Of a stretch of DNA of 15,759 nucleotides, positions 229 through 13,752 are shown piece after piece. The first letter of the stretch is position 1. Each line of letters begins with the position of its first letter. A model generated the notes under the pieces. That model was given only the letters and a program-made list of their open reading frames with translations. It was not told the origin of the DNA and ran no database searches. Source of the stretch: Candidatus Desantisbacteria bacterium CG1_02_49_89 (GTDB taxonomy: Bacteria > Desantisbacteria > UBA1551); the NCBI GenBank assembly GCA_001871075.1, contig MNUP01000054.1, forward strand, positions 1 to 15,759, written 5' to 3'. The translations under genes were made by a program, and so were the position numbers.

Positions 229-397
229 GTCATTTGTCATTAGTCGTTTGTCATTACTAAAAGACAAATATTTCTCTGTGTTCTCTATGGTTAATTTCGT
301 GCTTTCGTGATTTCGTGGTAATAAAGATAGTCATTAGTCATTTGTCATGAGTCATTTGTAAAAGCCGAAGATTTCTCTGTGCCTCTGTGTCTCTGTG
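229..397. repeat. Compound heptamer repeat, two units
   Basis: Two arrays of four 7-bp units of the form GTCATTW (229-256 and 330-357, each with one or two substitutions) are each followed by a similar AAAAGNC...ATTTCTCTGTG segment. The region is therefore a duplicated compound unit of about 100 bp. The second unit ends in three CTCTGTG copies at 8-bp spacing (375-381, 383-389, 391-397). Between the units is a TTTCGTG-rich stretch (296-317). The repeat ends about 25 bases before the ribosome-binding site of the next gene, so it lies in that gene's promoter or leader region. I cannot identify a promoter within it. Confidence 0.65.
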
Positions 398-420
398 GTG
401 AATTATTTAAATTTTTCTTT

Positions 421-427
421 GGAGGGG
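421..427 (+). promoter_or_regulatory. Ribosome-binding site of the first giant gene
   Basis: GGAGGGG lies 2 bases before the ATG at 430. It decides the start: the frame is open further upstream to a GTG at 379, but that extension (PLCLCGELFKF...) is translated from the CTCTGTG repeat and would bury the signal peptide. Confidence 0.75.
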
Positions 428-429
428 AA

Positions 430-3400
430 ATGCATAAATTAACAGCAGTGGTAACGGCGTGCGTTATGATCGCGGGATGCGCATTCGGGGAGGTGGCGGT
501 GGGCGGCAGCGGAAAGGGCGTGAGCATTTCAAACGGGCTTACGAAGATCAACGTGGTCCTGAAGGACGGGGATGCGGTCGGTTTCGAGGTTTTCAGCACG
601 GTGAAGGGCGAGCTTCAGGTCGCGCTTGTGGAGCTTTCTTCCTCCGCAAGGTGGAAGGCTAAGACCGTCGAATCCGGCAAAAAGGGGACGGGCTCATTTT
701 CCAGCGCATTTTTCACGTTGAAAGGTATGGATACCGCGGGCACAAAAGGCACGCCGGAATTCGGCCCGGATTCCTATATAACCGTTTCTCTTGACGAGGG
801 CAATCCTTTCCCGCAGGTGGAATTCAAGTTCGACCTGAAATCTTTTAACGCGGACAAATGGGAATCAGCCTGGGGCAGTGGATGCCCGATGTATTTCCTG
901 CGCTGCACGCTTGACGAAGCCCAGTGTTTCTACCAGGGAGGGGAGCTTTTCCCGTCCCCGACGTTCGACCCCTATCCGATAACAATGCCGCAGATGAGCG
1001 GTGACTGGTCCCCTTCCAGGTGGTCATACGCGCCTGCTATCGGCGCGAACCCGGTCCCGGCAATGGGTTTATGGGCTCCGCAGATAAAGAAATTCGTCGG
1101 CTACGAGTTCCAGCACAGCCGTTCAACCAACAGGAGCGAGAAATTCATAGCCAGCTCATACTGCGCCGGAGAGGACGCGCATCCTAAGCAGTTCTTTACC
1201 CTATTATACCCATACGCGAAGGGACAGTGGCGCAAGTTGAGGTATCCTGACAAGCCGGCTGTTATCGGCACTCATTTCAGGGTCATATACAACCTTGACC
1301 TTCCTTCATTCCAGGACCCAAATGATTTTGTTATTCATTATATATATCGGACATACCTGGACCTGCTTCCTGACTGCCCGAAGATGAACGATCTGTCCTG
1401 GATGAAAGGGACCCAGGGTTCCCCTGACGAATACGGCGCGCTTCTGCTGTATGACATGGGAAAGCGCAAAGGCAAGCCAGGCAGAGGCGCAAGCCGGCTT
1501 TACGTTAAATATGACCAGAGCGAAAAACAGTTCTTCAAGGCCGGCGCGACCCAGCTTATCGGCCACCAGACAGGGAAAGCCATCAATCTCGCTTACCTTG
1601 TTAATAACCAGAATGCCATAAAGGATTACAAGGCACAGATCGAGTTCCTTTTACCGAAGGCGATCGAAAAGACCTATGAGAACGGGGATAAGTGCTGGGT
1701 GTGGAACCACCCTCTTGAAGGCGCTTTCAACGACGGGTACAAAGGGGATGCCGCGACTTCAACCCAGCACATGTTCAACTGGAGCATAGCTGAGGCGATG
1801 CTTTATATTTATATAAACGAGAAAGATGAAAGCTACCTGAAATATATCGACGGCATGCTTTTATGGACAAAACATTATCTGTATGACCGGGCAGGAATGG
1901 CTGACATACCGCAGTCAATATTTTCCATGGGAGCGGGCAACGGCGGGGAGTTCTGCCTGGATTACTATTACACATTCAGGAATGACCCGAAAAGAAAAGA
2001 GCTTGCGAAGCAGGCTTTTGACCTTGCGAAGATGGTTGTTTTCAGGAACGTGTATTACTATACCGATGACCCGGATAATTACGATGAGCTGGATCCCACT
2101 TTCCTGATGCAGGCGGTCAACGCCCAGTACTGGCTTGGAATGGTGACCTGGGGAGAAATGGGCAGGATCCCTGAAATGCTGATGCAGATATACGCCGAAA
2201 CAGGCGACCCTGTGGCGAAATATATCACCCGCGGTTGCCTTGAAAGGTTTTTCTGGGGCGCCAGGAACACCAAGCTCGAATTCTGGGAGAACATAGACGT
2301 TTTCGGCGAGTCAAACGGCGAGAAGGGCAAAGGTTCAGGCGGGTGGGGGGCGTGCAATTTCAAGAGATACGCCCAGCCTGTCGGTGACGCTCTGGCAAGA
2401 GTTGTCATGGGCCAGGGCGGGGCAATGGCTTTCTGCGTTAAGACATTCGCGGTTGACATAGCCGATTACTGTTACGAGCCGGAGAACAATTTTGAATTCA
2501 AGGTTACTGTTGATAAAAGCCTTGCGGGAGCTCCTTTGGGGGAATTCGGCCTGATCGCCACAGCACCGAGGCGGGACCTGCGCGGAAAAAAAGTTTATTT
2601 GAACGGCAAGGAACTTGAATCAGGCACATTTGTCATTTCCACGATCGGCGAGGACGTTTTTCTGGGAGCCGTGAAAGCCGGCGACGTTGTGACGGTCGGG
2701 GATATTAAAGCGCACAAGCCCCTGAAAACAGAGCAGGAAAAAGTAAGGGTCATACCCAAAGGCAAATACGTGAAAGAAGACGCTTTCGCGCTTCTCAATC
2801 TCTATCCTGTCGCGGATACGAAGATAGACGCGACCTGGCAGGGGGACTGGGGCGGGTACATACCGGGTAAAAGGTACGTTTCAGGCATACCCTGCCTTAT
2901 GATAGACCCGGTTTTCAATTCTGACAAAACAGCTGTGGGCGGCGGGGTGCAGGTTCCTGTCGATGAAAAGGTGCAGGCAATTTTCGTTTTCGCCTCAACC
3001 GGCGGCAGGATCGGGAAGATAGGCGATTACACCGTGGCCTATTCCGACAACACGACCCAGAATTTTGAGCTTGTCGGCGGGGCGGACGCGTTCGCAGGCT
3101 CTCCTTATTACAAAAGGACCTGGCAGATAAAGATGTATCCCAACATTCTGCCAGCGGAGAAATCCGTGAAATCTATCGTTTTTTCCAAGGGGTCTATGAT
3201 ATTCGCGGTCACGCTGCAGCTGCTGCGGACAGAGGACGCGTCAAAGGCTATCGAGATCATGAAGTCCGCGACAGAGATGAAAATGATGGCGGAAAGCAAT
3301 TACAATTACCAGTCACCCGATAAGAAAAACCCGCTTGACCTCGCGTGGTGGAACAAGGACTGGCATTACAGGACACTTATCCAGCTGGGCGCGGGTTCGG

Positions 3401-5058
3401 TTGACAGGCAGGACCCTATAATAAGGATAAAGGAAGATTTCTCCCTGCTCCTGGAACAGGCAGGGGTTTCGGACGCGTTTGACACGAATTCAGTGCGCGT
3501 CGTGGAATACGACGCTGCGGGAAAGGCTTTCGAGATCCCGGCGCAGTTTGACTGCGTTCTTGGGGAAAAAGCCCGCGGTGAGGCTGTGTGGATAATCCCC
3601 GGAAAAATGAAAGCGGGTGAGAAAAGGAACTTCTGCATATACTTTGACACCGTGAAGAGCCCAAAGAAACCCGTAAGATCCGAGATCAAGTACAGCACGG
3701 ATAACGGCGTGCTGCTTGTGGAAACAGGGAAGGGCGGGGCAAGGCTTGAGTTCAGCCTGGACGGCAGCGCCAGGGGCCCGCGCCTGGAATCCGTGATCTT
3801 TGACAATGAGAACAACAATGATTTCGACAACCAGGAGAATGTGCTGGGCCCTTCAGGATATAACGAGGGGTACGGCGATCTTACCGTGTGCCAGGACCCT
3901 ATATGCTGGTTTAATTTTGGGGGATTGCAGGACGCTTCCGCGGTCGCGGACGTGGTTTCAAGCGGGCCTGTCTCGCTTACCGTGAAGATCTCAAATAAGG
4001 AACTATACGGCGGGGGAAAAGGCTCTCTGGATTCAGGGACAAAGGTCGTGGGATACGCTGACTGGTATTTCAGGTTCTTTAAAAACCAGAAAAGGATAGA
4101 CCAGTGGGTGGATATCAACCTGCTGAGCAGCGGGCACAAGTGGACAAGGGAGCTTACGGCCAGGTATGGCCTTAACACCAGCGAGGGTGCCGGAGCGTCA
4201 GGGGAAGGCGGGGTGTTCTACGCGTTTAACAGCGAGCTCGCCGCCGTGGTGCTTGAGGACGAGGCAGGCCGCAAAAAGCCCGGCATCGTTTTCACTGAGG
4301 ACGGAGGCGTGATACAGGTCGGGTTTGAAAGGTATGACAAAAAGGGCATGTATTATCCGGGAAGGTGGTTCATTGTTCCGGGCGGTCAGCCTGCGGAATA
4401 TTATAATTCGCAGGCAATGCTGTTCCCGTTCGCGCAGTACGCGGTTGAAGTTCTCGGGAAATCCGGGGTTGAGAAGCTTGAGCCGAAACCGGTCCAGCCG
4501 AAAGCTTTTGACACAAAGCGTGAAATGGCTGCCCCTGAGGAAGGGGAAGCCGCGGCAAAGCCTGCGGCGGCCGCGCTCACGTTCTCGGACAGCGTCTATC
4601 TGATCATGGGAAAGAAAGACGTGAGCTTCGGCCTGAAGCGCAAGGACAATCCTGACGAGGGAAGGTCAAAATCCGGGACCAGGGCCGGAAAAGAATGCGG
4701 TTATCCGGGTGAGAACAAGAACGGACCCGGCAGGATGTTCTATTTTGACATTGACGACAAGTTCATAGCGGACGCGAAAACCCAGAAATTCACCATTGCC
4801 GTTGAATACTTTGACGAAGGCCCTTCCGCGGGCCTGGAATACGATTCAACGGATGAGGCAGTGCAGAAATGCCCGACAGCAGGCGCGTTCAAGGACTACC
4901 CGGAGAAGATAGAGATAGAAGATTCGGGGAAATGGAAGACGTTTACATTCAGGATAGAGGACGGGCGTTTTAATAATTCCTGCAACGGAGCGGATTTCAG
5001 GTTCTCCGCAGAGGGTGAGTTCTGCATTTCCAGAATAACTATCACTAAGGCAAAATAG
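430..5058 (+). CDS. Giant secreted multidomain carbohydrate-active-like protein, paralogue 1
   Basis: A protein of 1542 aa, probably exported. The N-terminus has a short hydrophobic segment and a lipobox-like I14-A15-G16-C17, so it may be an outer lipoprotein; simple type I cleavage nearby is the alternative. Approximate layout: beta-rich domain 20-290; helical region 298-680 rich in aromatic residues, resembling an alpha/alpha toroid; small beta domain with DLRGKKVYLNG near 716; galactose-binding/jelly-roll-like domain 784-935; DUF2341-like domain opening with WWNKDWHYR (about 973-1080); beta-sandwich 1090-1354; Pro/Ala/Glu-rich linker 1353-1382; C-terminal jelly-roll about 1385-1542 with DFRF near its end. 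Helical toroids combined with such beta modules are typical of polysaccharide lyases and glycoside hydrolases, so a role in binding or cleaving an extracellular polysaccharide is inferred. No catalytic residues are recognised. The paralogue at 5521 matches nearly end to end except for the C-terminal module. A PcRGLX/YetA relation is possible but unproven. Confidence 0.85.
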   Translation: MHKLTAVVTACVMIAGCAFGEVAVGGSGKGVSISNGLTKINVVLKDGDAVGFEVFSTVKGELQVALVELSSSARWKAKTVESGKKGTGSFSSAFFTLKGMDTAGTKGTPEFGPDSYITVSLDEGNPFPQVEFKFDLKSFNADKWESAWGSGCPMYFLRCTLDEAQCFYQGGELFPSPTFDPYPITMPQMSGDWSPSRWSYAPAIGANPVPAMGLWAPQIKKFVGYEFQHSRSTNRSEKFIASSYCAGEDAHPKQFFTLLYPYAKGQWRKLRYPDKPAVIGTHFRVIYNLDLPSFQDPNDFVIHYIYRTYLDLLPDCPKMNDLSWMKGTQGSPDEYGALLLYDMGKRKGKPGRGASRLYVKYDQSEKQFFKAGATQLIGHQTGKAINLAYLVNNQNAIKDYKAQIEFLLPKAIEKTYENGDKCWVWNHPLEGAFNDGYKGDAATSTQHMFNWSIAEAMLYIYINEKDESYLKYIDGMLLWTKHYLYDRAGMADIPQSIFSMGAGNGGEFCLDYYYTFRNDPKRKELAKQAFDLAKMVVFRNVYYYTDDPDNYDELDPTFLMQAVNAQYWLGMVTWGEMGRIPEMLMQIYAETGDPVAKYITRGCLERFFWGARNTKLEFWENIDVFGESNGEKGKGSGGWGACNFKRYAQPVGDALARVVMGQGGAMAFCVKTFAVDIADYCYEPENNFEFKVTVDKSLAGAPLGEFGLIATAPRRDLRGKKVYLNGKELESGTFVISTIGEDVFLGAVKAGDVVTVGDIKAHKPLKTEQEKVRVIPKGKYVKEDAFALLNLYPVADTKIDATWQGDWGGYIPGKRYVSGIPCLMIDPVFNSDKTAVGGGVQVPVDEKVQAIFVFASTGGRIGKIGDYTVAYSDNTTQNFELVGGADAFAGSPYYKRTWQIKMYPNILPAEKSVKSIVFSKGSMIFAVTLQLLRTEDASKAIEIMKSATEMKMMAESNYNYQSPDKKNPLDLAWWNKDWHYRTLIQLGAGSVDRQDPIIRIKEDFSLLLEQAGVSDAFDTNSVRVVEYDAAGKAFEIPAQFDCVLGEKARGEAVWIIPGKMKAGEKRNFCIYFDTVKSPKKPVRSEIKYSTDNGVLLVETGKGGARLEFSLDGSARGPRLESVIFDNENNNDFDNQENVLGPSGYNEGYGDLTVCQDPICWFNFGGLQDASAVADVVSSGPVSLTVKISNKELYGGGKGSLDSGTKVVGYADWYFRFFKNQKRIDQWVDINLLSSGHKWTRELTARYGLNTSEGAGASGEGGVFYAFNSELAAVVLEDEAGRKKPGIVFTEDGGVIQVGFERYDKKGMYYPGRWFIVPGGQPAEYYNSQAMLFPFAQYAVEVLGKSGVEKLEPKPVQPKAFDTKREMAAPEEGEAAAKPAAAALTFSDSVYLIMGKKDVSFGLKRKDNPDEGRSKSGTRAGKECGYPGENKNGPGRMFYFDIDDKFIADAKTQKFTIAVEYFDEGPSAGLEYDSTDEAVQKCPTAGAFKDYPEKIEIEDSGKWKTFTFRIEDGRFNNSCNGADFRFSAEGEFCISRITITKAK

Positions 5059-5060
5059 TC

Positions 5061-5065
5061 AATTA
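5061..5065. repeat. Left copy of 5-bp flanking direct repeat AATTA
   Basis: AATTA lies immediately outside the left inverted repeat and is matched by AATTA at 5492-5496 just outside the right one. This is the pattern of a 5-bp target-site duplication. Five A/T bases can coincide by chance, so the weight comes from the exact position at both TIR borders. Confidence 0.6.
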
Positions 5066-5106
5066 CCTTCACCCTCCCCCTTGAACGGGGGAGGGATGGG
5101 TGAGGG
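5066..5106. repeat. Left terminal inverted repeat of DUF559 cassette
   Basis: It contains a perfect 9-bp hairpin, CCCTCCCCC (5072-5080) with GGGGGAGGG (5087-5095) and loop TTGAAC, followed by GGGTGAGGG (5098-5106). The same elements appear in reverse complement at the right end. It follows the giant gene's stop closely, but it has no T-tract and is not read as an intrinsic terminator. Confidence 0.75.
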
Positions 5107-5497
5107 TGGTTATTTGAATAAAAAATTAAGGGATCTTGCTAGAAATCTTAGAGATAATTCTACAGATACAGAGAATTATATATGGAGATTTTTAAGGAAT
5201 AACCAATTAGAAGGATTTAAATTTCGCCGTCAGCATCCAATAGGGAAATATATCGTAGATTTTGTTAATTTAGAAAAGAGAATTATCGTTGAGGTAGATG
5301 GAGCGCAACATCTTACTAACAAAGAAAAAGATAGAATAAGAGATGCCTGGTTTAAAAAAGAAGGATTCAGAACTTTGAGATTCTGGGATAACGAAGTATT
5401 AAACGATATCGAGTGTGCATTAGAAATCATAAGAGGAGAACTTTTATTCCCCTCACCCGAACCCTCTCCCGCAAAGGGGCGAGGGCGAAGGAATTAA
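5096..5497 (+). CDS. DUF559 domain protein (Vsr/PD-(D/E)XK-like nuclease fold)
   Basis: A small protein of 133 aa from ATG 5096. It shows the DUF559 hallmarks in order: KKLRDLARNLR; a TxxE-W-FLRNxxLEG helix; KFRRQHPIGKYIVDFV; the core RIIVEVDGAQH carrying the acidic E/D pair expected for a Vsr-like endonuclease fold; and RTLRFWDNEVLxD. This family is predicted to be DNA-cleaving but is mostly uncharacterised. ATG 5096 lies inside the left inverted repeat; TTG 5114 with GAGG at 5103-5106 upstream is a credible alternative, and TTG 5081 is unlikely. The last residues (PSPEPSPAKGRGRRN) are encoded by the right inverted repeat, and the stop TAA (5495-5497) is completed by bases in and beyond the flanking AATTA. 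The gene is much more A+T-rich than its neighbours, which indicates an independent origin. Confidence 0.85.
   Translation: MGEGGYLNKKLRDLARNLRDNSTDTENYIWRFLRNNQLEGFKFRRQHPIGKYIVDFVNLEKRIIVEVDGAQHLTNKEKDRIRDAWFKKEGFRTLRFWDNEVLNDIECALEIIRGELLFPSPEPSPAKGRGRRN
5450..5491. repeat. Right terminal inverted repeat of DUF559 cassette
   Basis: CCCTCACCC (5450-5458) is followed by an imperfect hairpin, CCCTC(T)CCC at 5462-5470 with GGG(C)GAGGG at 5477-5485, and then GAAGG at the border. In reverse complement it aligns along its whole length with 5066-5106, needing a few one-base gaps. Confidence 0.75.
5492..5496. repeat. Right copy of 5-bp flanking direct repeat AATTA
   Basis: This pairs with 5061-5065 as the putative target-site duplication around the DUF559 cassette. 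It overlaps the stop codon of the DUF559 frame. Confidence 0.6.
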
Positions 5498-5520: not shown

Positions 5521-8500
5521 ATGCCTAGACGTTTTATATTTTTGATTTTACTTTTAGCATTCAGCTTTTCCGCCCCGATATTATATCGGGGCGAGACCTC
5601 GCCCCTTTGGGGCGGGCAGCTTGCCCACGCCGGCTCCGGCGCCAGCGCCATCTGGAATTCGCTTGCGCGGGTGGAGGTCCTGAAAGCCGAAAAAGGCGCG
5701 TATGGGTTTACCGTGAAAGCCGAAGGCAGCAAGAAGGTCTGTAATGTTGAACTGACAAGCGGCCAGAGGTGGACAGCGTCTGACGTAAAGACCGGGCAGG
5801 AAGGCAGTGTTTCCTGGGTTATTTTCAAAGGCATAGATACCACAGGGACAAAAGGGACACCTGTTTTTGGGGATGATTCATTCATCAAGGTATCCCTTAA
5901 AGAGAACAACCCGTTCCCGGAAGTTGAGTTCTCGCTTAATTTCGCGTCTTTTGACGAAGGCAAGTGGAAAACAGGGCTTTCCCCGGTTTCCCCGCTCTAT
6001 TACCTGCGCTGTACCCCTCCGAAATCCACTATGTTCTATATCGGAGGCGGTTACATCCCGTCTCCGCAGGTTGAGGAATTTCCCTTGAAACTGAACAAGG
6101 GAAGGATGTCAGGCGAATGGGGAGACAAGTGGTCATACGCGCCTGCGATGGCAGGCTGGGCTGTGCCAGCAGTGGGATTGTGGGACCATGAAGGAGCTTT
6201 ATTCGTTGGTTATGATTTCGCGGTCGCGCGGCATACCGACAAAACCGAAAAATACATCGCGAGCGCTTACTGCGCAGGCACAGGCGACCATTCAGGCCAG
6301 TTCTTCACCCTTGTGCATCCGTACCAGACCCAGTGGTCAAAACTCGTGTTCCCAAAATGCCCTTCGACAGCCGCTTCGCATTTTGAAATAGTATATTCGT
6401 TCGATATCCCGTCCTGGAAAGACCCCAACATGTTCGTGATGAAGCACATATACGAAGCGCATAAGGACCTGCTGCCTGAGGTCTCGAGAATGAACGACGT
6501 GGGTTTTATGCCCGTGATCGATTCCTGGACCTCGCCGTACGGCCTAGGTTACACCACAGGCGCAGGGGCAGGCGTAATGGGAAAGAGCTCAGGCGGAGGG
6601 CTGGAGGGCGTTTTCATAGAGATCGGCACAACAGTGCTGGGAAACAGGTTCATAGCTGACGCGATGGGATGGGTCAGGTATCAGAAAAATAAAACAGGGA
6701 TGCGGGGCCTGAAAGACCAGCTGAAATACCTGATGAAAAAGGCTGTGTGGATGAATATCAGCGGGGATACCTGCTGCGTCTGGGTTGACCCGCTTGAAGG
6801 GCCGGGATTTAAAAAGCAGTGGGGAGGCAAGGAAGTAGAGACGATCTACAATGAGTGCGTGTTTGACATCGGCACAGCGATGGTGTTCGCGTATATGGAT
6901 AAGGGAGAGACCCAGTACCTTCCTTTTGTCGACGGCGTATATAACTGGGCGAAGCACTTCCTGTTCCAGCGCAACGGCGTATGCGATCTGTCCTGGGCTA
7001 TGTTCTGCCACGTCGCCTTGAGCGGCGGCGAGAATTTCATGCTGAATTACCGCAAATTCTTCAAGAACGACCCCCGGCGCGGGAAGAATTACGGCGAGGC
7101 GCTTGACCTTGCGGCAATGTGCCTTTACAAGACGATGTGGATCTACACCGCGGACCCTGACGAGACTGACCTGATGGACCCTTCGTTCCTGATACAGGCG
7201 GTTAATTCTGACTGGTGGATAGGAAAAGTTACCTGGAACGAATGCGGCTGGATCCCCAGGGTAATGATACCGGTGTATGTTGAGACAGGCGACCCGCTCT
7301 TCAAATATCTTCTGAGGGGAGTGCTGGACAAATTCTGGACAGGTTACAAGGCGGACGCGGTGCACGTTGTCGAGAATATAGAGATCTTCGGGGAGAAAAG
7401 CCCGAAAGGGGAAAGGTCAGGCTCTCCTTTTGACGGGTGCATGCTTTCCGCGAGCCGCAGGTGGGCTTACCCGGTTGGCGACGCTGTGATGCGTGTGGAT
7501 GTCGGCGAAAAAGCCGCCATCGCGTTCTGCAAGGATACGCGGGATTTTGACGCCGAGGATTACGCGTGCGACCCTGAGATGAACTGCTCTTTTAAGGTGG
7601 TTTCTTTGCAGCCCTCAAAACCGTCCCAGCCGATAAACATTATTGTTACAGCGCCGTTCAAAGACCTGCGCGGGAAAAAGGTTTACGTGAACGGGGCAGA
7701 GCTGGGTGAAGACAGAAGCGAGTTCAACGAGGTCACTGAAGGGGAAGATGTTTACATAAAAGGAGTGAAGCCGGGGGACGCCATTAAAATCGGCGAGTTA
7801 AAAGTTGAAAGTTCTCCCAAAGGGATCCATTCGGAAAAGTTGTCCCAAAGGGATCCATTCGGAAAAGTTGAAAACGTGAAAATCAGAGAAGCGAGAAAAG
7901 AAAAATACACGGAGAAGATGGGGTTCAAGTGCCTTAATCTTTCGCAATTCTGCAATAGCGCTCTTGAGCTGCGGTGGTGGAGAAAGGATGACATGTTCAA
8001 GCTGCGCGAGGATTCCTGGTTCGGGTATTCTGCGGGAGAACACATTGCGAACGGGGTGCCGTTCATGCTTGAAGACCCGGTCCTGAATTCTGATAAGGTT
8101 TTCATCCAGGGGAACCCGGGTTCGCCGGTATCGATCCCCGTCGGGGAAGAATGCGGAGCAATTGTTCTGTTCTTCGGTTCGCTCAATTCAGAAGGCGGGC
8201 CTTCAGGCAAGGCAAGCGTTGAGTTTGAGGACGGTTCAAAAGCAGTTTTAGATGTCGCAAGCTCCACCGTGCCTGCGGATTTCACGAACAACCTGCCTGT
8301 AAGGAACTGGGATTTCCACATGCTGTGGTTCCGGCCTGAGAAGCAGCAGAACGTTGCGCGGATAATTATTGAAAGCGGGAGGCTTTTTGCGGTGACCCTT
8401 GGAACAGAAGGCAGGCATTTTGACATCGCCGCAAGGCTTGCTTCCGGAATAGCCGAAGAGCAGGCCCTGCGCATGCAGAACTACGGTTATTATCTGCCGT

Positions 8501-10248
8501 CAAAGAGATCGCCGGTTGACTGGGCCTGGTGGGACAAATCCTGGAAGTACCGGGCGTTGATGGAAGTTGACGCCGGTGTTTACGAGCGCAAAGACGCTGC
8601 CGTCAGGCTCAAAGAGGATTTCGAAATGCTTTTCAGGCAGGCAGGCGTGAAAGATAATTTCGATTCCAATTCTTTGAGGATCGTTGAATATTCATCCGAC
8701 GGTAAAGCGCTGAAAGAAGTACCCGCACAGTTCGATGTTCTGAAGGAACTGAATGGATCAAAGGGCGAGCTTATTTTCATAATGCCGGAGAAAAGTCCCG
8801 CAGGCGGTAAAAGATACTTCTACGCGTATTTTGATTCAAAGAAAAGCAGGAAAAAACCGCCGAAACCTTCGATAAGCGTTTTATCCGCCGAAGGCGACAG
8901 GGTAACAGTAAACACCGGAAAAGGCGGAGTGGAATTCGAATACCTGCTGGACGGGAACGGCGTGGGCCCAAGGATTACAAATATAACATTTGACACTGAA
9001 GGGAGCGGGGATTTTGCAAACCAGAATAACGCGCTGGGCCGCTCGGGCTATAACAGCGGGTACGCTGACCTGACCGCGTGCCAGGACCCGATCCTCTGGT
9101 ATAATTTCGGACTGCTCCAGTCAGATCCCTGCCAGGCGTCAGTTGTGCACCTGGGGCAGGCGTCCCTGACCCTGAAGATCTCCGGCAAAGAGCTGTGGGG
9201 GGCAGGGGACGAAATAGGGTCGGGCAAGTCTGCCGCAGGCAGGAAAGGCCTGGCAGACCTGTATTTCAGGTTCTACGCGGGCAAACCCGAGTTTGATTCC
9301 TGGATCGATTACAGCCTTGAAAAGCCGGATACAAAATGGACAAGGGACTTGCAGGTGCGGTACGGGCTGAATGACTGGTCCGAAGCGGCTTCTGCTTCAA
9401 AAGCAGGAGTGACATATGCTACAGGCGGCCAGGTTGCTGTTGTCCCACTTGATGAGGAACAGGGAAGGTCGAAAATATCGGTTTCGTTCACCACTGACGG
9501 CAACGTGCTCCAGCTCATGCTGGGCAAGCCGGAGTTTAAGGGCAGTTACTTCACTGACAAGTGGAGGACTATGCCCGCGCTGGGAGAGGATGCGTACCTG
9601 GCAAACGCTATTCCCGTAAAGGTAACGCAGTACGCGATTGAGATCAATGAAAAGTCAGGCGCGAACAAGCCTGAAATTATTTCCGTGAAGCCTGAGCTAT
9701 ACAGCACCATAAAGGCTGTTGCCTCCGCTGAACAGGAAAAGCCGCTGCCAAGCCCCGAAGGAGTTCTTAACAAGGATTTTTCTTTTGAAGAAAAGGGCAG
9801 GTACTGGGGCTGCGAACCTGACGAGAGCTATTTTTATTACGGGGATTCACACTCAGGCAGGACCTGCGTAAGGCTGAGCATCGCGAAGGGCGGGCTTGCG
9901 CTTATCAGGACCAATCCTCTGTCAAGTTATCTTATGGACCTCAGTCCGAACAAGAACTATAAGGTATCGTTCTGGGCTAAAGCAGTGGGCAGTGAAGCTA
10001 CCGTGATGGTCAACTTCTACGGAGGCGGGGCGCATGATTTCAAGCAGATACCCTTCAAGGTCGAGGCAAGTGAAGAATGGAAGAAATATGAGATGGTCGT
10101 GCCAACAGGCAATTTTCCTAAAGGAATGAAGGAAGGCAAGATATTCGCGTCTTCTTCGGTTATCCCGGGCCTCAGGATATGGTTGTTAAGTGAACCCGCG
10201 GAAGTTTATATAGACGATGTTGAGATCCGCGCCCCGGCCCAGCAGTAA
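5521..10248 (+). CDS. Giant secreted multidomain carbohydrate-active-like protein, paralogue 2
   Basis: A protein of 1575 aa, a diverged tandem paralogue of the gene at 430. ATG 5521 is chosen because it gives a classic signal peptide (MPRRFIFLILLLAFSFSA); the Shine-Dalgarno is weak (GGGGG, 5511-5515). Shared layout, approximate: beta domain 45-295, helical toroid-like region 299-675, beta domain with DLRGKKVYVNG near 714, galactose-binding-like domain 800-965, WWDKSWKYR DUF2341-like domain 1004-1110, beta-sandwich 1120-1370, linker about 1390-1413. The C-terminal module (1415-1573) differs from paralogue 1: NKDFSFEE, YKVSFWAKA, EWKKYEMV and VYIDDVEIR match the CBM4/9 jelly-roll pattern, so carbohydrate binding is likely. 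There are two oddities: a palindromic cluster is translated just after the signal-peptide core (PILYRGETSPLWGGQLAHA), and a 28-bp tandem repeat is translated in two frames in the 765-784 linker. Function is inferred from domain types; no catalytic residues are recognised. Confidence 0.85.
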   Translation: MPRRFIFLILLLAFSFSAPILYRGETSPLWGGQLAHAGSGASAIWNSLARVEVLKAEKGAYGFTVKAEGSKKVCNVELTSGQRWTASDVKTGQEGSVSWVIFKGIDTTGTKGTPVFGDDSFIKVSLKENNPFPEVEFSLNFASFDEGKWKTGLSPVSPLYYLRCTPPKSTMFYIGGGYIPSPQVEEFPLKLNKGRMSGEWGDKWSYAPAMAGWAVPAVGLWDHEGALFVGYDFAVARHTDKTEKYIASAYCAGTGDHSGQFFTLVHPYQTQWSKLVFPKCPSTAASHFEIVYSFDIPSWKDPNMFVMKHIYEAHKDLLPEVSRMNDVGFMPVIDSWTSPYGLGYTTGAGAGVMGKSSGGGLEGVFIEIGTTVLGNRFIADAMGWVRYQKNKTGMRGLKDQLKYLMKKAVWMNISGDTCCVWVDPLEGPGFKKQWGGKEVETIYNECVFDIGTAMVFAYMDKGETQYLPFVDGVYNWAKHFLFQRNGVCDLSWAMFCHVALSGGENFMLNYRKFFKNDPRRGKNYGEALDLAAMCLYKTMWIYTADPDETDLMDPSFLIQAVNSDWWIGKVTWNECGWIPRVMIPVYVETGDPLFKYLLRGVLDKFWTGYKADAVHVVENIEIFGEKSPKGERSGSPFDGCMLSASRRWAYPVGDAVMRVDVGEKAAIAFCKDTRDFDAEDYACDPEMNCSFKVVSLQPSKPSQPINIIVTAPFKDLRGKKVYVNGAELGEDRSEFNEVTEGEDVYIKGVKPGDAIKIGELKVESSPKGIHSEKLSQRDPFGKVENVKIREARKEKYTEKMGFKCLNLSQFCNSALELRWWRKDDMFKLREDSWFGYSAGEHIANGVPFMLEDPVLNSDKVFIQGNPGSPVSIPVGEECGAIVLFFGSLNSEGGPSGKASVEFEDGSKAVLDVASSTVPADFTNNLPVRNWDFHMLWFRPEKQQNVARIIIESGRLFAVTLGTEGRHFDIAARLASGIAEEQALRMQNYGYYLPSKRSPVDWAWWDKSWKYRALMEVDAGVYERKDAAVRLKEDFEMLFRQAGVKDNFDSNSLRIVEYSSDGKALKEVPAQFDVLKELNGSKGELIFIMPEKSPAGGKRYFYAYFDSKKSRKKPPKPSISVLSAEGDRVTVNTGKGGVEFEYLLDGNGVGPRITNITFDTEGSGDFANQNNALGRSGYNSGYADLTACQDPILWYNFGLLQSDPCQASVVHLGQASLTLKISGKELWGAGDEIGSGKSAAGRKGLADLYFRFYAGKPEFDSWIDYSLEKPDTKWTRDLQVRYGLNDWSEAASASKAGVTYATGGQVAVVPLDEEQGRSKISVSFTTDGNVLQLMLGKPEFKGSYFTDKWRTMPALGEDAYLANAIPVKVTQYAIEINEKSGANKPEIISVKPELYSTIKAVASAEQEKPLPSPEGVLNKDFSFEEKGRYWGCEPDESYFYYGDSHSGRTCVRLSIAKGGLALIRTNPLSSYLMDLSPNKNYKVSFWAKAVGSEATVMVNFYGGGAHDFKQIPFKVEASEEWKKYEMVVPTGNFPKGMKEGKIFASSSVIPGLRIWLLSEPAEVYIDDVEIRAPAQQ
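5573..5626. repeat. Palindromic cluster inside the signal-peptide region
   Basis: Four consecutive, partly overlapping perfect stems: CCCCGATAT/ATATCGGGG (5573-5591), GGGGCGAG/CTCGCCCC (5588-5605), CGCCCC/GGGGCG (5600-5614) and GGGCA/TGCCC (5614-5626). Neighbouring stems share bases and so are mutually exclusive. It looks like an interspersed palindromic repeat that landed in the coding region in frame. Its translation adds about 19 residues ending LAHA, which supplies a possible signal-peptidase I site (AHA). Confidence 0.7.
7815..7870. repeat. Perfect tandem 28-bp duplication in a coding linker
   Basis: Bases 7815-7842 and 7843-7870 are identical. Each starts TCCCAAAGGGATCCATTCGG and ends AAAAGTTG. 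Because 28 is not a multiple of 3, the copies are read in different frames (SPKGIHSEKL, then SQRDPFGKVE). The unit matches the reverse complement of the repeat at 171-196. It falls in the linker before the galactose-binding-like domain, where paralogue 1 has unrelated sequence of different length. Confidence 0.8.
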
Positions 10249-12753: not shown

Positions 12754-13752
12754 ATGGCAAGACCTATCAGAATAGTATACGAGGGCGCCCTGTACCACGT
12801 TACTTCAAGGGGTAATGAGCGAAAAAGGATCTTCCAGAACTCGGATGACAGGAGGAAATTTTTATCTATTATCAACGAAGCATACCAGCGATATGGCATT
12901 TTTCTTCACTGCTTTGTTCTTATGGATAACCACTATCATATGATGATCGAGACTCCGAAAGGCAATCTTATACAGGCAATGCATTATATTAACGGAAAAT
13001 ATACACTATTCTATAATTGGAGGCATAAAAGAACAGGCCATCTTTTCCAGGGAAGGTATAAAGGCATTCTTGTTGAAAAGGATGAATACCTGCTTGAACT
13101 GAGCAGGTATATACACTTAAACCCGGTCCGGACAGGGGAAGTGGCTAATCCGGCAAACTATGTCTGGAGCAGTTTTGTCTACTACATGGATAGCTCCAAG
13201 ACAAGCCCGGATTGGTTGAGAAAAACCTTTATTTTAGGCCAGTTTTCTCATAAAGACAACCAGGCAAGGTCAAGATATGCCGGGTTTGTTAAGGAAGGTA
13301 TCCGAAAATCACCCCAGAACCCCCTTTCAAAGACCTATGCCCAGGCTATTCTTGGCAGTGAAAGGTTCAGAATACAGGTAAAGGAAAGGCTGGGCAAGCC
13401 CAGGATCCAGCCAGAAGTGCCTTCCACCAGGAAGCTCGCCGAAGATTCCTGGCTTACCCCTGAAGAGGTGATAAAGCTGGTTGCAGGATATTTCGGTGCG
13501 CCAAAGGATGTCATGGTTTTGAAGGGCAAGAAGGCCAACCTGGCAAGAACTGCTGCAATTTACCTGTGCAGAAAATACACGCCCGCAAGCCTTTTAAGCC
13601 TTAGTTCCCATTTCGGAAATATAGTGTATTCATCCATTACGCAGGTCTCAAGAAGAATGGAGAACAAGCGGAAAGTTGACAGATATCTTGACAGGAAGAT
13701 CAGGGCTGTTGAAAAGGTGCTGGAAAACAAGCGGTTGCAAAGAGTTTCTTAG
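12754..13752 (+). CDS. REP-associated-type Y1 (HUH) transposase with DnaA-C-like tail
   Basis: A 332-aa protein. Residues 1-150 are a Y1_Tnp domain: MARPIRIVYEGALYHVTSRG start, DNxxxF-like strand, HUH metal-binding motif H60-Y61-H62 within LMDNHYHMMIETP, helix INGKYTLFYNWR with candidate nucleophiles Tyr83 or Tyr87, GHLFQGRYKGILV, and RYIHLNPVRTGEV. These are single-strand DNA transposases that nick through a tyrosine and often act on short palindromic repeats. Residues about 238-320 (EEVIKLVAGYFG to ITQVSRRM) resemble the DnaA C-terminal helix-turn-helix seen at the end of many long members of this family, presumably for target recognition. The catalytic motifs are intact and the length is normal, so it is probably functional. 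AGGGA at 12746-12750 serves as ribosome-binding site, and translational coupling to the ligase gene 7 bases upstream is possible. Confidence 0.92.
   Translation: MARPIRIVYEGALYHVTSRGNERKRIFQNSDDRRKFLSIINEAYQRYGIFLHCFVLMDNHYHMMIETPKGNLIQAMHYINGKYTLFYNWRHKRTGHLFQGRYKGILVEKDEYLLELSRYIHLNPVRTGEVANPANYVWSSFVYYMDSSKTSPDWLRKTFILGQFSHKDNQARSRYAGFVKEGIRKSPQNPLSKTYAQAILGSERFRIQVKERLGKPRIQPEVPSTRKLAEDSWLTPEEVIKLVAGYFGAPKDVMVLKGKKANLARTAAIYLCRKYTPASLLSLSSHFGNIVYSSITQVSRRMENKRKVDRYLDRKIRAVEKVLENKRLQRVS

Follow-up and report, generated by a model that had tools for sequence, protein, structure and literature searches.

A DUF559 gene bracketed by inverted triplex motifs: a proposed minimal mobile element of a new kind

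The DUF559 cassette and its triplex-motif ends

The window, i.e., the whole 15,759-nucleotide stretch of Candidatus Desantisbacteria bacterium CG1_02_49_89 analyzed here, contains two tandem giant paralogues (379-5058 and about 5521-10248, 41% identical to each other), and the short gap separating them is occupied by a single DUF559 gene set between two imperfect inverted repeats of ~41 bp each (Table 1). Arm-to-arm alignment of these repeats yielded a score of 26 (shuffles: mean 6.8, maximum 14), and other pairs of positions at equal spacing in the window scored 13 at most. The G+C content of the core is 0.307, vs. 0.53 and 0.52 in the flanking genes, and 0 of 617 sampled 335-bp windows were as low. 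A first-pass annotation of this DNA had described hairpin-bearing inverted repeats around one DUF559 gene, a core far more A+T-rich than its neighbors and a placement between tandem paralogues, and all of this is borne out. The giant paralogues have more homologous matches elsewhere in their own genome and none in the 58 other genomes searched, and the flanking giant gene had no match in one other genome of the same order. A Pfam domain (CBM_4_9) was recognized in the second paralogue only.

Both repeats fit the pattern of the G/C-rich intrastrand triplex motif (TM or TMECO, earlier PIT elements) described in >260 genomes (Holder et al., 2015; PMC4666352), i.e., a pyrimidine arm, a loop, a purine arm, 2-4 nt, and a purine third strand compatible with reverse-Hoogsteen triplets, which in the window follows G*G, A*A and T*A triplets. 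In each repeat, this hairpin is accompanied by a 9-nt purine third strand (or “tail”), with both tails facing the gene, and a TM motif scan of the whole window returned these two repeats only. TM repeats are known from E. coli, Neisseria, Pseudomonas and cyanobacteria, and single-stranded DNA of the E. coli motif folds into a stable triplex in vitro, in vivo proof being absent (PMC4666352). They have no known source, and genetic variability and genome instability have been reported around them, together with flanking genes of no consensus function and no mobility functions nearby (PMC4666352). The motif is here tied to DUF559 as paired ends, whereas that study names no mobility gene.

Table 1. 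Features of the DUF559 cassette in the window.
Feature	Position	Strand	Basis
Complete unit (TM, DUF559, inverted TM), AATT at either outer end	5061-5496	+	arm alignment
Left AATTA, within the extended inverted repeat; unsupported as target-site duplication	5061-5065	.	
Hairpin of left TM, CCCTCCCCC-TTGAAC-GGGGGAGGG	5072-5095	+	motif scan
Third strand (tail) of left TM, GGGTGAGGG, pointing at the gene	5098-5106	+	motif scan
DUF559 (PF04480) domain, TTG start at 5114	5114-5437	+	profile search, conserved residues
C-terminal read-through of the DUF559 frame over the right TM, ~20 aa then stop	5438-5497	+	
Third strand (tail) of right TM, GGGTGAGGG on the - strand (forward letters CCCTCACCC), pointing at the gene	5450-5458	-	motif scan
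Hairpin of right TM, CCCTCTCCC-GCAAA-GGGGCGAGGG, one mismatch	5462-5485	-	motif scan
Right AATTA	5492-5496	.	

Across 110 different DUF559-flanking ends (the window's included), agreement of the tail with the mirrored purine arm was 0.949 vs. 0.868 ± 0.007 when permuted (z = 11.3), and a direct copy of the arm gave z = 5.5, both z values being overstated because these ends are phylogenetically dependent. The length of the tail G-run before its first A or T also correlated with that of the arm G-run after its last A (rho = +0.36), as a mirror predicts, while the same correlation was negative under the direct-copy model; the mirror was preferred to the direct copy. Third-strand sequence follows the mirrored purine arm, as would be expected of a purine triplex. 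Ordinary folding of the right repeat was unremarkable (z = 0.03), with DNA folding programs that do not model triplexes.

The gene held between the repeats matched PF04480 (DUF559) with an E-value of 3e-37 and 127 bits (cut-off 20.6), and its product retains all of the conserved residues E20, D49, E60, D62 and H66; the predicted, likely catalytic residues are invariant across the aligned DUF559 sequences. The solved DUF559 homologue 3hrl (NGO0050) was matched with E = 1e-44, and the EDxHD homing nuclease I-Bth0305I (3r3p) with E = 1.3e-3 across 56 residues. DUF559, with its member YcjD, is a family of PD-(D/E)XK nucleases akin to Vsr (PMC1189080), and was earlier termed EDxHD homing-endonuclease-like (PMC9403480). 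The nuclease domain is thus kin to that of Vsr and probably to those of EDxHD homing endonucleases, and a selfish-gene role is plausible; unlike these, the DUF559 unit comes without intron, intein or extended DNA-binding region, and measures ~430 bp with repeat ends of its own. An AGGG within the left tail lies 7 nt upstream of the start codon of the window gene, and the median distance from inner tail to start codon is 10 nt in the common tail-inward layout. Judging from this spacing, the purine tail of the left TM could act as the Shine-Dalgarno sequence or ribosome-binding site of the DUF559 gene.

Recurrence of the gene-repeat unit

A second DUF559 gene of the window's genome (C135, L009) has such repeats on either side, and single copies of the repeat also lie at other intergenic positions. 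Three points go beyond the first-pass annotation: the ends are triplex motifs instead of plain terminal inverted repeats, the inner tail of the left repeat is the probable ribosome-binding site of the gene, and another DUF559 gene of the same genome is bracketed likewise. Nine copies of the exact canonical TM pattern were counted in this genome, two of them being the window's, and a reversed control pattern gave zero matches in any listed genome. The window DUF559 groups with a Clostridia MAG (support 100/90) and the C135 gene with Geobacteraceae (97/87), and their position in different supported clades suggests that the two genes arrived separately. A conserved “TAAGGAAATT” tail considered for the solo repeats was dropped, as it resembles the ribosome-binding sites of the following genes.

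A set of 80 loci was chosen from GTDB genomes on DUF559 protein similarity alone. An inward-facing TM occurred within 250 bp upstream of 61/80, downstream of 61/80, and on both sides of 54/80 of them, for a background density (500-2900 bp away) of 0.0146 TM per 100 bp per locus. Clean tail-in pairs were found at 36 loci and a clean tail-out pair at one, tail-out units being a minority, seen in Deinococcus and in one further family. From 290 genomes searched by profile came 54 additional loci in other genomes, nine of them at contig edges with approximate coordinates, with a TM upstream of 30 and downstream of 26. Hosts of the DUF559 loci include Pseudomonadota, Thermodesulfobacteriota, Nitrospirota, Elusimicrobiota, Bacillota, Chloroflexota, Spirochaetota and others.

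The association also held genome-wide, with the canonical TM present in 26/57 genomes with a strong DUF559 match vs. 24/233 others (290 genomes; OR 7.3, p = 9e-9). Among genomes without Y1 transposase, TMs were found in 8/17 with DUF559 vs. 4/101 without (OR 21.6), and within DUF559-positive genomes Y1 made no difference to TM presence (OR 0.92). About half of the strong-DUF559 genomes lack the canonical TM pattern, and variants exist (e.g., in genome G110). TM similarity follows DUF559 similarity (Mantel rho 0.178, exceeding all 1000 permutations), which is not explained by G+C, and paired TMs at one locus resemble each other more than TMs from different loci. Three genomes (G130, G271 and G118) hold 73, 22 and 16 TMs, respectively, yet have no DUF559 or Y1 transposase match.

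The AATTA noted outside both ends in the first pass is indeed present, but its reading as a target-site duplication (TSD) is not supported. The inverted repeat itself extends through AATT (AATTACCTTC / AATT-CCTTC), and, once boundary slack is allowed for, a 5-mer match of this kind would arise at this composition with a probability of about 0.03. Among 54 comparable cassettes, no excess of flanking direct repeats was detected (mean longest repeat of 3.74 nt vs. 3.67 nt for permuted flanks), and direct repeats of at least 5 nt were seen at the ends of 18.5% vs. 16.2% when permuted. Since direct repeats at the ends of like cassettes are no longer than those of their permuted partners, the window AATTA is unsupported as a TSD.

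G110 carries about a dozen related copies (L172, L182-L193) of a ~630-bp element bearing a DUF559 cassette, which is a MITE with terminal inverted repeats (TIR) GGTAGTGTCAAAA and 8-bp TSDs. Inverted ends and dispersal are common to this IS-derived MITE and to the window unit, which has terminal inverted repeats and dispersed copies and no supported TSD; the G110 element differs in having a separate outer TIR and 8-bp TSD around TM-DUF559-TM, whereas the window unit has none. In two of the G110 copies, the triplex motif replaces the first half of the DUF559 gene.

In E. coli, the DUF559 family member ycjD has a fixed locus between sapF and fabI and occurs in about 61% of complete genomes, and strain K-12 combines ycjD with 23 TMs. 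Two inverted TMs lie downstream of ycjD (L032, L028, sapF-ycjD-fabI). The hairpin before ycjD is not a TM, because its counterpart follows sapF in strains without ycjD. These strains have an eef efflux operon filling the sapF-fabI gap, and the site was accordingly rejected as a clean empty site, the upstream hairpin belonging after sapF. The E. coli gene hence resembles the window unit in its family and its downstream TMs, and differs in its fixed locus and its lack of a clean left TM, i.e., an older, decayed context.

Filled, empty and solo sites

One family comprised six homologous DUF559 units across five species, and several of its copies at different sites lose homology at the outer ends of a TM-containing 40-bp inverted repeat (three of them have ~90 bp extra in common on one side). 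Solo copies of this 40-bp repeat, mostly ~90% identical or better, are dispersed in those same genomes. In two genomes of different families, units are 86% identical within unrelated flanks.

Sites lacking the unit were also found. At the gene pair where G334 and G336 carry a unit, G339, G333, G335 and G337 have neither unit nor leftover motif; on the right, this unit borders at its repeat on sequence that is apparently ancestral (common to G337), and ~460 bp of other DNA separates its left side from the gene. Another unit, carried by G248 and G346, is absent from the congeneric G345, where a tail remnant stays, as well as from seven more species with no visible remnant. In Deinococcus psychrotolerans, the unit begins right behind the paaD stop codon, and Deinococcus sp. 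QL22 has paaD-paaZ with neither unit nor TM. Because the empty sites of G339, G333, G335, G337 and QL22 hold no TM, the motifs came or went together with the gene; given the extra DNA beside the unit in two comparisons and the TM tail in one empty genome, some of these sites may reflect loss instead of gain.

Overall, related genomes carry units and same-sequence solo TMs at differing positions or do not carry them, and on the strength of these genome comparisons DUF559 units are mobile. The copies with other flanks, the solo repeats and (for other units) the empty sites that the first-pass annotation had proposed searching for were all found, and its minimal mobile unit of inverted repeats and DUF559 is upheld.

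A site examined at L223 was unusable as a clean empty site, being a gene-content hotspot. The site of the G309 unit (L298-L311) is a hotspot, where relatives carry differing DNA, partly gene-sized, between the same neighbors. A ~160-bp dispersed repeat adjoins the G248 unit (L194, bases 1304-1462) and is missing there in G346; G345 carries several copies at other positions (L269, L270).

A REP-like reading and its alternatives

We infer, with a probability of roughly 0.6, that the unit is a REP-like element with a Vsr/EDxHD-type nuclease of its own acting at the TM ends, solo TMs being non-autonomous derivatives. In its favor are the recurrent bracketing, the mirror fit of the third strand, the covariation of TM and DUF559 sequences, the association across genomes with and without Y1, the mobility of the units, the different clades of the two DUF559 genes in the window's genome, and the nuclease kinship with its conserved acidic and His residues. 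For the broader proposal of a single widespread class of mobile elements made up of DUF559 and TMs, whose Vsr-fold nuclease would recognize a three-stranded DNA end, we see about even odds. As an autonomous, selfish element, the unit might function as follows: when a TM becomes single-stranded during replication, repair or transcription, its two arms (pyrimidine and purine) and its purine tail would adopt a triplex hairpin, which the DUF559 protein would recognize and beside which it would nick or cut, and the TM-ended unit would be copied or joined to a new site by host repair, with single TMs presumably moved in trans. Against this reading stand the inability of a hydrolytic nuclease to join ends by itself, the absence of a general TSD, and the TM-rich genomes without DUF559 match (G130, G271 and G118). 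The strong-DUF559 genomes without the canonical TM, the tail-out minority, and the E. coli ycjD locus without a clean left TM count in the same direction.

The closest parallel is REP/REPIN with RAYT (TnpA-REP), in which short hairpin repeats are likewise dispersed, alone or as inverted pairs, and a single nuclease gene lies between two copies in inverted orientation. The DUF559 unit differs in that its nuclease is of the PD-(D/E)XK and not the HuH Y1 type, that its ends are triplex motifs, and that the DUF559-TM link holds in genomes without Y1 enzymes; no repeat-flanked Y1 HuH gene was found, the gene between the window repeats being DUF559 and the Y1 gene of the window lacking a TM.

The repeat and the gene family were each already known, and their union as one unit is apparently the new part. 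No statement that DUF559 and TM form one unit was found in the literature searched (mostly open-access journals, bioRxiv excluded), and repeats were not a topic in the titles or abstract openings of DUF559-mentioning papers. DUF559, a common family, has no settled role, and linking it with the TM gives each a testable function. The unit points to a minimal mobile element of a new kind, one with triplex ends, whose coming and going between related genomes could explain the spread of these long-puzzling repeats, and a nuclease acting at the repeats, if true, would be a candidate cause of the genome instability around TMs. With a solved DUF559 structure, and with ycjD and 23 TMs in E. coli K-12, the idea is directly testable.

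The first-pass annotation had offered two readings, a unit mobilized by its own nuclease-fold protein and a MITE with a captured nuclease gene, of which the former fits better because the same DUF559 bracketing recurs in many phyla. An element of MITE or IS type with a 5-bp AATTA TSD does account for the inverted repeats and the AATTA, and G110 has an IS-type MITE bearing such a cassette; with AATT inside the inverted repeat, no TSD excess in 54 cassettes, and a bracketing that spans phyla and is no one-off capture, we regard it as very improbable. More weight, within what is still an unlikely explanation, goes to a host or IS transposase (RAYT-type Y1 or other) that would mobilize the TMs with DUF559 as a passenger between them. 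The window does encode a RAYT-type Y1_Tnp gene (12754-13752), in G110 the cassette is carried inside a MITE that has a TIR and 8-bp TSDs, TM-rich genomes without DUF559 exist, and TMs are weakly linked to Y1 in DUF559-negative genomes (OR 4.3). However, no TM lies beside the window's RAYT gene, TMs follow DUF559 in the absence of Y1 and, where DUF559 is present, are indifferent to Y1 (odds ratios above), and the recurrence of one gene family with one motif in many phyla would be hard to explain by repeated capture. From the Y1_Tnp survey across 290 genomes, RAYT is not needed as a mobilizer.

Somewhat less likely again is a homing-type DUF559 nuclease that would cut pre-existing TMs, the unit spreading by TM-TM recombination and not by its own transposition. 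Its probable kinship to I-Bth0305I and the homing-endonuclease-like label would suit this, as would the inverted TM pairs enclosing no gene in E. coli (PMC4666352) and the TM tail kept in the empty site of G345, but the TM-free empty sites listed above argue against it. Finally, DUF559 could be a resident repair or Vsr-like enzyme, the hairpins being merely terminators and leader sequences: Caulobacter VsrA has a DUF559 domain and a DNA-damage phenotype (PMC12907096), the TM tails stand at ribosome-binding-site distance, and ycjD occupies a fixed locus in most complete E. coli genomes. We consider this improbable, as terminators would leave unexplained the presence/absence between sister species, the multi-copy amplification, the two-sided tail-inward symmetry and the conservation of the third strand, and earlier work on TMs (then PIT) reported neither promoter nor terminator activity (per PMC4666352). 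The self-mobilized, REP-like unit remains our preferred reading.

As a separate observation, the RAYT-type protein of the window combines Y1_Tnp with a C-terminal DnaA-like helix-turn-helix (Bac_DnaA_C), and its genome has 10 Y1_Tnp matches.
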